A stretch of DNA of 33,017 nt, taken from positions 1 through 33,017 of IMG/VR virus record IMGVR_UViG_3300027734_000204; one strand, written 5' to 3'. The notes below the pieces were generated by a model. That model saw only the letters and a program-made list of their open reading frames with translations. It made no database searches and was not told where the DNA came from. Position numbers and translations under genes: made by a program. Below are positions 24,652 to 32,372 of the stretch, one piece after another; the stretch's first letter is position 1; each line of letters begins with the position of its first letter. Source of the stretch: a virus.

Positions 24652-27024
24652 TTACTTCTTTTTAAATTTAAGTTTTTTGTCTAAACGACTTTCGAGATAG
24701 GGAATACTTTTTATGCCAACAAATGGATCATTAGAACCAGGAGTGTCTTGAAGAAGTTTATTTACTACTTCAGGAGTGCCTTCAAATCCTGCACCATGAT
24801 CTTCATTCATGCTGCGATTTTTTGATTTAGATATTACTTTTAAATTGTCAACACTATTATTTTGAGGGTTGCCATCTTTATGATGAGTATCATTACCATC
24901 GCCTTTACGAATTTTACCCTTTTTTTTCATTATTCTGTTGGCAAGAACTCGTTTGCTACGATTTTTTCTTTGTTCTGGTTTTGCGTGGTAATTGTCGTAT
25001 TCTTTGCGGTAATTTCTTTTTTCATCTAAAGAAGAAAACTGCTCCATGATAATTAAAGCGTCTAGCAGATCAATTTGACCTGCCTTGATGTTCTCCACCA
25101 AACAGTCATTGATTGAAAGGTATTCTTCTAGTAAAGCGTCTGCTCCCTTTTCTATTACATTTTGTGAATCGCCGTCTGGATTAAAGTTTACGTGTACTGG
25201 AATTTGAACTTCGTCTTCCGAACTGGTACCTGGATTGAACACCACGGTATTGCTTACATCAGTATCGCCCGCATAGAATTCTGAATAAACTATTGGAGTT
25301 CTGAAAGTTGCATCAGTTAATTGTAATTCAAATAATTGAAGGAATGCCAGAGGATTTGATAACTGATCTTTAACCTTCTCGATTTGCATTACTGCGCCAA
25401 TATTACTCTCGGTTAAAGTCTCTGTGGTTTGTTGGAAGATGGATTGTAAGAATCCTTGGCTAGAATTTGGTGTTTGAACAAATTTTAAACTTATATCAGT
25501 ATCTTTAGACTTTGCCAGAGTGGTTGCAAAATCTGCAGTCAACGGAATTGCTTTAGCGTCAGTTCCGTCTTTCTTGGCAGTAAACATCATTTGAGCAGAA
25601 CCACGCTTGCCATCAAACTTATTGTTTCCTGTTAATGCTTCTAATATGAAAGCAGTCTTGATCTCTATACTTTGATTTATATAAGTTTCAATAAGATCAG
25701 ACGCTTTACTTATTATTGTTTTTTGTGAGTTTATGATTTGATCGCGTTTTGCTTTCTCTTTGCCTAAAGAAATTAGCACATCATTTATGCCTTGTACTGG
25801 TGTTGGAACTGAACGAGAAGAAAATCCTTTACGTAAATCTTCTACAAAGTCTTTCACAAACACATCAAAAGTTCCAACAATTTGTTCTGGTTGCAGACTG
25901 TTTAGTATGGAAGTAAACACTAAACCGGCTTCGCCTTTATTTGTTGGTCTTAACTGTTCACCAATCTTTACAGAAATACCAACCTCTTGTCCGTTTCCTT
26001 TACCAATCACTGTGGCGTTAGGAGCAGCTTCTTTCATGCCTGCTTGAGACCAAGCTTTAGAAGTCTTGACAACCGGATCTAATTTTTCAAACTTCATTGA
26101 GGCAGCAGCAGGAAATGCAGCAAAGAGTTCTTTGGTAAATCTTTGCATGGCATCACCTAATGTTCTGCTGGTGGTTATAAGTTCTTCATACTCTTTAGAC
26201 GGCTTCTTGCCAGATAAAGAATTTAAAGCATCAGGAGTTGTTGCGATTAATTGATTAGTATTGTGATCCCAATCAGGATATGTGGAGTCTGGATCTGTTA
26301 TTTCTTTTCCGTCTTTTGGAGCTCTTAACTCTGGTGGTTCTGGTTGTTGTTCTTCCGCTTTGCCTTTAGCTCCACCGGTTTTCTTTTCTTCTTTTTCTTT
26401 TTCTACTCTACCACCTAAAAGTTTGATGGAAGTTTTTGTGTTCATAAAGTTGTCTAAACGAGAATAGTAATTCAAGTCTCGCTTAGTCACATTACCTTTA
26501 TCAATCTTCTTTGCTTTACCTTTTAGTATGGTGTGTGTTTGAGGATTATAATCACTCTTTGTGATAATTTCAATTTTATTTAATTTATTGTTCTTAACAA
26601 TAATGATATTGGCAAGACCGGTTTGTTTTTCTTCGCGGCGATCTTCTCGTTTGCGATCACGTTCACGATCAGCAGGGTCTACCTCTGGGCGCATTCTTTT
26701 CTTTTCTGCTTTTAGTGGAGTCTTTTTTGATTCTGCTTCAAAAAGTAGTGACGTTAAAAATTTGTCACTCAACTCTTTAATCTTTTTACTAAAAACAGAT
26801 TCTCTCATTTGTATTCCTTTAGCCTTTGCTTGATATAAATCTCTGGCAAGTTCTGATTTCAAGCGTCCTTTACGGATTGCTGTCTCTCGATCAAAATTAG
26901 CCATTTTCTTTCGATTTTCAAATTTTTGTTTTTGATATGGAATATTCATCTCCCATAAAATGGAAGACTCGGCTAAAAAGTCAGCATAATTAGATTCATT
27001 AAACCAGTTTGGTTGATTAGACAT
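24652..27024 (-). CDS. Large late protein with C-terminal HNH-type motif
   Basis: 790 residues. The N-terminal third is charged and probably helical (AIRKGRLKSELARDLYQAKA, ADRERDRKREDRREEKQTG). The middle (about 270-640) is a globular alpha/beta region with no motif I recognise. The C-terminus carries an HNH/NUMOD4-type signature: basic helix RSKRVLANRIMKKKGKIRKG, then HHKDGNPQNNSVDNL at about 714-728 and ISKSKNRS. T4-like marine phages often carry such a module at the end of large, probably virion, proteins; whether it cuts DNA is unknown. Expression follows a CATAAATA late motif 11 nt before ATG 27024 with no SD. It heads a three-gene operon. Confidence 0.8.
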   Translation of the reverse strand: MSNQPNWFNESNYADFLAESSILWEMNIPYQKQKFENRKKMANFDRETAIRKGRLKSELARDLYQAKAKGIQMRESVFSKKIKELSDKFLTSLLFEAESKKTPLKAEKKRMRPEVDPADRERDRKREDRREEKQTGLANIIIVKNNKLNKIEIITKSDYNPQTHTILKGKAKKIDKGNVTKRDLNYYSRLDNFMNTKTSIKLLGGRVEKEKEEKKTGGAKGKAEEQQPEPPELRAPKDGKEITDPDSTYPDWDHNTNQLIATTPDALNSLSGKKPSKEYEELITTSRTLGDAMQRFTKELFAAFPAAASMKFEKLDPVVKTSKAWSQAGMKEAAPNATVIGKGNGQEVGISVKIGEQLRPTNKGEAGLVFTSILNSLQPEQIVGTFDVFVKDFVEDLRKGFSSRSVPTPVQGINDVLISLGKEKAKRDQIINSQKTIISKASDLIETYINQSIEIKTAFILEALTGNNKFDGKRGSAQMMFTAKKDGTDAKAIPLTADFATTLAKSKDTDISLKFVQTPNSSQGFLQSIFQQTTETLTESNIGAVMQIEKVKDQLSNPLAFLQLFELQLTDATFRTPIVYSEFYAGDTDVSNTVVFNPGTSSEDEVQIPVHVNFNPDGDSQNVIEKGADALLEEYLSINDCLVENIKAGQIDLLDALIIMEQFSSLDEKRNYRKEYDNYHAKPEQRKNRSKRVLANRIMKKKGKIRKGDGNDTHHKDGNPQNNSVDNLKVISKSKNRSMNEDHGAGFEGTPEVVNKLLQDTPGSNDPFVGIKSIPYLESRLDKKLKFKKK

Positions 27025-31228: not shown

Positions 31229-31236
31229 CATAAATA
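31229..31236 (+). promoter_or_regulatory. T4-type late promoter variant CATAAATA in front of RNA candidate
   Basis: CATAAATA with no protein gene behind it. The predicted start (about 31242) lies at the first stem of the structured region, and a terminator follows about 125 nt later, forming a complete short transcription unit. Confidence 0.45.
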
Positions 31237-31239
31237 AAG

Positions 31240-31368
31240 GTGATCGGGCTGAGTTGGTCGTAGACAGTCCTTCACGCGAACTACGCCATTCATGCTTTAA
31301 AAGGAACTTCGCTACCTTTCGATCGTCATAGAGGCAGGGGAGAGTTCACGCTCTCCCTTGCTTTTTTT
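31240..31368 (+). ncRNA. Candidate structured non-coding RNA
   Basis: About 125-nt unit between a CATAAATA motif and a terminator, in a 230-nt space without a good protein gene. Possible helices read from the sequence: P1 GGTGATCG (31239-31246) with CGATCGTC (31320-31327), 8 bp including two G-U pairs, closing the whole element; P2 GG(T)CGTAG (31256-31263) with CTACGCC (31281-31287), one bulge; P3 AAAGG (31300-31304) with CCTTT (31315-31319); P4 is the terminator stem. P1 to P3 form a three-way junction. The composition is GC-richer than its surroundings. A 25-codon TTG frame (31254-31331) inside it has no SD. No known RNA family is recognised. It might be a regulatory RNA or the leader of the 31407 gene. 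Confidence 0.45.
31334..31368 (+). terminator. Rho-independent terminator of the RNA candidate
   Basis: GCAGGGGAGAG (31334-31344) pairs with CTCTCCCTTGC (31351-31361), 11 bp with one G-U, a 6-nt loop, and seven T's at 31362-31368. The last T is also the first base of the next late promoter. Confidence 0.88.
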
Positions 31369-31375
31369 ATAAATA
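31368..31375 (+). promoter_or_regulatory. T4-type late promoter TATAAATA
   Basis: Exact match sharing a base with the terminator T-tract. The gene it serves starts at 31407, so the leader is about 26 nt and contains AAGGAA (31394-31399), a normal ribosome-binding site. Confidence 0.65.
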
Positions 31376-31406: not shown

Positions 31407-32372
31407 ATGGACATGGAAAATATTAAAAAAGCTGTTAAAGAGTCTGTCTTACAAAACTTTATGGAAGCCGCCAAGTTTGCTCGCCGTGGTGCTGTAAAGC
31501 AACGCCCAAAGAGTTGGAGCAAAGGCACCAAGTCTGGATCAGACAAGCGCAAGATGCGTGAAGAAGGCAAACAACAAGCCAGAAATATGAATGAATATTA
31601 TAATAGAGAACCAGGTTATCAATACAATCCACAACCAGACGATCCAAGGCCAGGACAACCAGGTGGTCCACCTGATCCAGAAGCCAAGCGCAAAGAGATG
31701 GGAGAAAGAATTTCTAATGCAGTACACGATTGGGTGGAAGAAACTGGTCTTCACAAACAACACGGCCATTCCACAGAGGAAATGCGTAAAGCATTAAAAG
31801 GTAGAATAGAAAATTCATACGACGATATAGCAGATGCAGCCAGTGATTTGATTGATGTGTATCCTGCACCTGAAGGTGTTGATCCAGAACAATATAAAAA
31901 ACACATGGAACAAGGTATACACGGATACGCAACTGGACGTTCACTAGAGAATAGAGATAAGATGTTAGCTGGCAATCCATACTATGATGCAATTAATGCG
32001 ATTGATGAATCTTATAATACAACTTCGTACTTTTACAACAAACTAAAAGAGAATACCGAGATTCCAAGACACGCCAGAGAAACTCCTGAAGAAACTCCAG
32101 ACTATTACGGTGAACTGGAACGCCAAAGAGAAGCAGGTACATCAGGAGAAGAACCTAGAGAAGAACCTAGAGAAGAACCTAATCGTCCTCATACTCCTGA
32201 AAGTGTTGCTAAACTATTACAACAAGCACACGAAACTGCTTTAGCAAGAACCGCAACTGCGTTTGGTCCTGGTGGTAAACATGCCAAGCAAGATCCGTTT
32301 TATATGATAAAACATTACGCAGATGAGCTAGACGCACTTCACACTCGCGTTATGGGTGATGCAAGTAGTTGA
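31407..32372 (+). CDS. Unknown charged late protein
   Basis: 321 residues from ATG 31407 (a second ATG at 31413 is possible), 7 nt after AAGGAA. The N-terminus is a basic helix (MDMENIKKAVKESVLQNFME, KFARRGAVKQRPKSWSKG), like the N-termini of capsid-maturation or scaffold-type phage proteins. A Pro-rich linker (QPDDPRPGQPGGPPDPE) follows, then a mostly helical acidic region, three REEP repeats (EEPREEPREEP) and a C-terminal helix (ESVAKLLQQAHETALARTAT). I do not recognise a family. An exact late promoter and a good SD mark it as a well-expressed late protein. Confidence 0.8.
   Translation: MDMENIKKAVKESVLQNFMEAAKFARRGAVKQRPKSWSKGTKSGSDKRKMREEGKQQARNMNEYYNREPGYQYNPQPDDPRPGQPGGPPDPEAKRKEMGERISNAVHDWVEETGLHKQHGHSTEEMRKALKGRIENSYDDIADAASDLIDVYPAPEGVDPEQYKKHMEQGIHGYATGRSLENRDKMLAGNPYYDAINAIDESYNTTSYFYNKLKENTEIPRHARETPEETPDYYGELERQREAGTSGEEPREEPREEPNRPHTPESVAKLLQQAHETALARTATAFGPGGKHAKQDPFYMIKHYADELDALHTRVMGDASS

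Follow-up and report, generated by a model that had tools for sequence, protein, structure and literature searches.

The window, by which we mean the whole 33,017-nucleotide stretch of phage DNA analysed here, carries a short intergenic transcription unit whose predicted RNA has a core that is the reverse complement of domain IV of 23S rRNA, with two antisense blocks conserved in all copies of the RNA and a third that is weaker. We consider it probable, at about 0.6, that this RNA belongs to a widespread phage family of natural antisense RNAs, with a docking loop and conserved mismatches of their own, which directly attack or reprogram host ribosomes by pairing with a 23S rRNA segment that is near-universal and lies at the subunit interface. 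A more specific reading, to which we give even odds, is that the copy in the window is a late-transcribed antisense RNA which pairs with host 23S rRNA and interferes with 50S function or with the joining of the subunits. The features of the locus are collected in Table 1.

Table 1. Features of the small RNA locus in the window (23S positions in E. coli numbering).
Feature	Position	Strand	Remarks
T4-type late promoter CATAAATA	31229-31236	+	motif match; same motif 5' of the RNA in homologues
Small RNA, whole predicted transcript	31240-31368	+	start placed by promoter spacing, end by the terminator
P1 5' strand, GATCG	31242-31246	+	pairs with 31320-31324
P2 5' strand	31247-31263	+	varies between subfamilies
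P2 3' strand	31281-31296	+	
Antisense block 1 UACGCCAUUCAUGC	31282-31295	+	complementary to 23S 1964-1977
Linker in place of 23S helix 71 (1945-1961)	31296-31300	+	3-29 nt between the blocks across the family
P3 hairpin AAAGG-AACUUCGCUA-CCUUU	31300-31319	+	10-nt loop, 31305-31314
Antisense block 2 AAGGAACUUCGCUACCUU	31301-31318	+	complementary to 23S 1927-1944 (helix/loop 70); one conserved mismatch, A1938
Antisense block 3 GAUCGUCAUAG	31321-31331	+	complementary to 23S 1914-1924 (helix 69, 3' side); conserved A1918 mismatch
Intrinsic terminator	31333-31368	+	hairpin 31333-31345/31350-31362 and T-run
Separate late promoter TATAAATA of the next gene (31407-32372)	31368-31375	+	directly 3' of the terminator

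The window is a fragment of an aquatic T4-type phage encoding a UvsX-like recombinase, a ribonucleotide reductase, tail fibres and a family B DNA polymerase with 47% identity to Synechococcus myophages. A 790-aa protein encoded on the minus strand (24652-27024) gave a weak match to an HNH_3 endonuclease domain at its C-terminal end (E 2.7e-5) and was otherwise unmatched. The motif NATAAATA, known as the late promoter of T4-like cyanophages (PMC2984593), was located in the right orientation 6-20 nt 5' of an ORF start at eight sites in the window and is thus probably used in this phage; it was additionally present 32 nt 5' of the gene that follows the RNA. The original prediction had described a late promoter, a structured RNA and a strong terminator standing together without a convincing protein gene, followed immediately by a separate promoter for the next gene, and each of these elements was recovered, with the promoter closely 5' of a structured transcript of ~120 nt, as in T4-type late transcription units. 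A 25-codon frame starting at TTG is not conserved by the homologues, in which indels of 1-2 nt shift and disrupt it. The locus had also been singled out as GC-rich, and at 49.6% it does exceed its immediate flanks (28-32%) and the window (40.3%), but 9% of same-size windows are equally GC-rich, and GC content alone is therefore unremarkable. The gene 3' of the RNA was without family match and contains a short repeat, GAAGAACCTAGA, at 32120-32190.

Pattern scans identified the RNA in at least 53 further IMG/VR contigs, giving 37 distinct core sequences in all, with a single copy per contig in each of the 27 contigs (up to 147 kb) that were searched whole. One record, L062 (IMGVR_UViG_2775507074_000001), was left out because it contains a genuine E. 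coli-type 23S sequence including helix 71 (~520-568) and is apparently contamination or a contig wrongly classed as viral. The RNA is intergenic and its neighbours form a dozen or more unrelated sets, indicating that the RNA rather than its gene neighbourhood is the thing that is kept. In the two nearest relatives the RNA is almost unchanged, against 76-86% identity of the adjoining protein; in L001, 133 nt from 31236 are identical to the window beside a protein that is 76% identical. A terminator lies on the plus strand in 33 of the 37 distinct loci, and a late promoter was found 5' of the RNA on the plus strand in 20 of the 37, with none on the other strand. Taken together, these sequence comparisons tell us that the locus is a real non-coding RNA gene. 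It can practically be dismissed that it is instead a DNA-level site matching rDNA, for a homing endonuclease or for recombination, or the leader of the next gene. The I-CeuI site falls in the same 23S stretch; however, with helix 71 missing there is no contiguous site, and promoter and terminator are conserved. A leader or riboswitch acting in cis is likewise at odds with many unrelated downstream genes (compare L008 with L009) and with a terminator and a separate promoter between the RNA and the gene that it would control.

The distribution of the RNA outside these contigs was assessed in several ways. A model search of 15 cultured T4-like phages did not detect the RNA at the sensitivity used, while the same model recovered all 27 carrier contigs under filters looser than those applied to the cultured phages. 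A gapped pattern run through 85,000 bacterial and archaeal genomes returned just four unrelated stretches. When the RNA was compared with cultured phages by blast, only chance matches and stray 23S records came up; a match in Pelagibacter phage HTVC201P (E 0.8) lies inside its ribonucleotide reductase gene and was set aside as chance, and S-PM2 contains the motif with one mismatch, as chance alone would lead one to expect.

For the region 31240-31368 the predicted fold has an energy of -47.7 kcal/mol (dinucleotide shuffles as control, z = -3.8) and consists of a three-way junction followed by a terminator hairpin of 13-16 bp with a T-run, and most copies fold likewise as a closing P1 with P2 and P3. 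The long P1 closing helix of the original prediction was not borne out: P1 has just 5 bp, and it is P2 and the terminator that are long. As to the covariation that was suggested as a check on the fold, it was strong in the terminator helix, where both sides changed in 10 of 13 pairs among 10 homologues and 94% of cells were paired in the window's subfamily, but P1-P3 of the same subfamily, although 96-98% paired, varied solely by G-U type changes. P1 was compared across subfamilies by eye, as these align poorly. The near lack of covariation in P1-P3 would be explained if the core were constrained by a target outside the RNA molecule. All five kinds of one-sided pair change seen in P1-P3 are G-U wobbles that work on the plus strand only. 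This bears on the notion that the opposite strand yields a decoy RNA resembling 23S, which we hold to be highly improbable: while the minus strand would indeed encode a 23S-sense fragment, the wobble changes do not suit it, late promoters are absent from it and terminators are few.

The complementarity to 23S rRNA came to light when blast of the homologues against phage records listed 23S rRNA fragments. The blocks are collinear with 23S in the correct antisense order, block 3, which contains most of the P1 3' strand, being matched in most copies and more weakly than blocks 1 and 2. The P3 hairpin mirrors that of helix 70, and 9 of the 10 nucleotides of its loop are complementary to the helix/loop 70 region, so that the loop would display antisense sequence. 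Aligned with antisense 23S, the window RNA matched AAGGAACTTCGCTACCTTTCGATCGTCATAG against AAGGAATTTCGCTACCTTAGGACCGTTATAG (23S 1914-1944) with a score of 37, which none of 3000 dinucleotide shuffles reached and which was the best among 255 tiles of the window. Across the 37 distinct RNAs, antisense scores of 28-55 stood against best sense-strand scores of 16-24, i.e. background. The best antisense alignment covered block 2 (1913-1944) in 35 of them, reaching 2003 in one, and lay at 1952-1978 in the other two. For the weakest members (L008, L021, L056 and, narrowly, L010, L054 and L059) a control of 100 shuffles reached or neared the observed score; testing these sequences one at a time thus does not decide the matter, whereas the collective test does. 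For the latter, a profile was trained on phage copies only, none of them chosen with 23S in view, and it found antisense 23S in all six bacteria searched (E. coli, Burkholderia, Ensifer, Priestia, Flavobacterium and Arthrobacter) at E values of 3e-11 to 7e-14, the next-best site having an E value of 0.62. In the alignments to this profile 23S has 15 extra nucleotides, and these correspond to helix 71. Duplex energies, calculated with the RNAs' own structure ignored, favoured this part of 23S over the rest in eight of eight RNAs. The complementarity is thus beyond chance, collinear and on the antisense strand.

Blocks 2 (1927-1942) and 1 (1964-1977) are pairable at nearly every position in 32-37 of the 37 sequences. 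Part of block 2 served as the search motif, so that its conservation follows from the way the copies were collected. The first motif, however, did not contain block 1. Of the distinct loci retrieved with it, 19 were checked, and every one of them has block 1, as does the window, with 12 to 15 of its 15 positions able to pair. The complementarity therefore holds across diverged carriers independently of the search motif, and the comparison of sequences shows blocks 1 and 2 to be maintained in phages that have diverged deeply and that carry the RNA among unrelated genes. Their place in the fold, on the other hand, changes. Block 1 is the P2 3' strand in the window's subfamily, while in a compact subfamily (L022, L024, L026, L034, L047, L048 and L052) part of it (e.g. 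CUACGCUA) lies in the P2 loop, and in L056 and L054/L059 little is left beyond the two blocks and the terminator. In L056 the RNA adjoins a gp23 gene related to those of Methylophilales and Pelagibacter phages. Such persistence of the blocks, with their pairing partners inside the RNA altered or lost, would be expected if the target were external. It also makes us give little credence to the alternative that the RNA is a structured sRNA with a protein or mRNA partner, whose likeness to rRNA reflects ancestry only, through captured antisense rDNA. Such an origin could accommodate the conserved mismatches described below, as well as a GCGAA motif, present in 25 of the 37 copies, which is complementary to UUCGC in loop 3 and could contact it in an internal loop-loop pairing. 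However, the blocks stay through subfamilies A, B and C and through the reduced members, and the 23S complement is better conserved than the fold. Four loci (L037, L049, L050 and L051), belonging to one subfamily, have an additional conserved 5' domain, GTGGTTGGAGGGATTTGAATACCGGGG.

The duplex is interrupted at recurrent positions. A1918 is unpaired in all 37 RNAs (C in 35), and A1938 faces a mismatched C in 31 and a pairing U in 6; C1925/U1926 and C1967 are mismatched in most, the last by A in 27. Such conserved mismatches argue against tuning of the RNA towards a perfect duplex. Opposite 23S 1974 the phage RNAs carry G (32) or T (5) and no other base, these being the complements of C, found in most 23S, and of A, found in the actinobacterium Arthrobacter; opposite 1971, two phages have a T, the complement of the A of Priestia. 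This variation hints that the phage RNAs may follow the 23S of their hosts. The host markers Photo_RC and WhiB gave no match in 50 carrier records.

We infer expression, timing, binding and effect from the anatomy and complementarity described above. The RNA would be produced late in infection, and its exposed P3 loop would pair first with the single-stranded helix/loop 70 region UAGCGAAAUU, after which pairing would extend to the second block across helix 71, which could remain folded as a bulge between two duplexes. The duplex would occupy the face of the 50S, free or still in assembly, that meets the other subunit, and 70S formation and translation would be reduced. Helix/loop 70 is single-stranded and is cut by MazF-mt6 in free 50S and not in 70S, and its mutation abolishes 50S-30S association (PMC5408214); a PNA directed against the neighbouring helix 69 inhibits the growth of E. 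coli (PMC7038079). On the basis of these toxin, mutation and PNA data we think docking on the 50S, with lowered 70S formation, the most likely mode of action. Two features complicate this reading. Block 1 of the window's subfamily is part of a stem, and the 23S sequence that it would pair with is itself base-paired in the mature ribosome, so that pairing would need either invasion or an assembling 50S. Late expression is moreover odd for a translation shut-off, since the phage still needs ribosomes.

One alternative is that pairing marks 23S rRNA for cleavage or decay, the duplex being attacked by RNase III or by a nuclease of the phage, so that nucleotides and phosphate are freed late in infection in nutrient-poor water. 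This would draw on the same complementarity and the same late promoter, and the window phage encodes a ribonucleotide reductase, i.e. nucleotide supply matters to it. We nonetheless judge it unlikely, as the conserved mismatches interrupt the duplex and no nuclease gene accompanies the RNA across loci. Alternatively, the RNA might be a shield, covering helix/loop 70 against host rRNA-cutting toxins of the MazF-mt6/mt3 type, which recognise UUCCU, or against other abortive-infection nucleases. Block 2 spans UUCCU (1939-1943), the site of both MazF-mt6 and MazF-mt3 (PMC5408214); a late and stable duplex at this place should, however, itself harm ribosomes, and toxins of this kind are not known from the hosts of the carriers, so that a protective role seems rather doubtful. 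The bipartite layout, with antisense blocks flanking one hairpin, also recalls a guide or chaperone that would pair transiently with domain IV of pre-23S around helix 71 and help its assembly or modification. Bacterial 23S is modified by stand-alone enzymes, and no partner protein gene accompanies the RNA; we thus regard such a helper as very unlikely.

Interference with the 50S by pairing would set this RNA apart from the phage RNAs described so far. The c4 RNA of P1/P7, sar of P22 and CfrI of a cyanophage are likewise short phage RNAs that present complementary sequences in loops, as described for c4 (PMC12197685), but they pair with phage or host mRNA, no rRNA target has been described for any of them, and rRNA is not mentioned in a 2025 review of small RNAs from phages (PMC12197685). 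The MazF-mt6 and MazF-mt3 toxins and the helix-69 PNA act on the same 23S surface (helix 69/70) and inactivate the 50S; in contrast to the RNA described here, the former are protein nucleases and the latter a synthetic oligomer, and neither is a natural RNA. The stable RNAs C and D of T4 are also small untranslated RNAs of a T4-type phage, of unknown function, but they are encoded in a tRNA cluster and gave no significant antisense-rRNA match. T4 rnaD (NC_000866; L083:1054-1172, minus strand) contains AAGGAATTGCGTTA, 12/14 antisense to 23S 1931-1944, plus TCGCTACC; this match to the same 23S spot has an E value of 2.5 and is not significant. The phi29 pRNA resembles our RNA in its phage origin, in its length of ~120 nt and in having a three-way junction and a pair of complementary loops, but there is no sequence relation between them and the Rfam model of pRNA did not match. 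To our knowledge, T4-type phages package DNA without a pRNA.

No precedent for the RNA was found in the open-access papers searched. Known phage routes run through proteins that act on ribosomes and small RNAs that act on mRNAs, and a natural phage RNA targeting rRNA was not found among them. Our comparison suggests that there are phages which use RNA rather than protein on host ribosomes. The helix 69-71 region is a functional surface vulnerable to toxins and to synthetic antisense agents, and the pairing, if real, would be a new viral means of controlling translation. As the RNA is ~120 nt long, no partner gene was seen and its target is nearly universal in bacteria, the proposal can be tested in a laboratory strain; the 23S of E. 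coli K-12, for one, retains the target apart from the mismatches named above. Independently of its function, the RNA offers a new marker by which a broad group of aquatic T4-like phages not yet in culture can be recognised.

The assignment to a small RNA of unknown class, as originally proposed, is supported by an autonomous unit that recurs in other contigs and by the searches of known families. No family of Rfam 15 reached its gathering cut-off in the window, and for the RNA region searched to E 10 the best match was Termite-leu, at 23.5 bits against a cut-off of 51. A tRNA or tmRNA identity was not supported by ARAGORN or Rfam. The wcaG, manA, PhotoRC-II, glnA and abiF models, which likewise describe structured RNAs of T4-like aquatic phages, did not match the RNA, whether in the window or at the eight related loci searched; at the latter, Rfam matches fell outside the RNA and comprised only tRNAs, tmRNA and manA. 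Arrays of tRNAs and a permuted tmRNA (RF04321) lie within a few kb of the RNA in the carriers L037 (807-4084) and L022 (2903-5612), and a manA RNA (RF01745) was located on the minus strand of L020 (7843-8046), a carrier of the TTACTCC variant.
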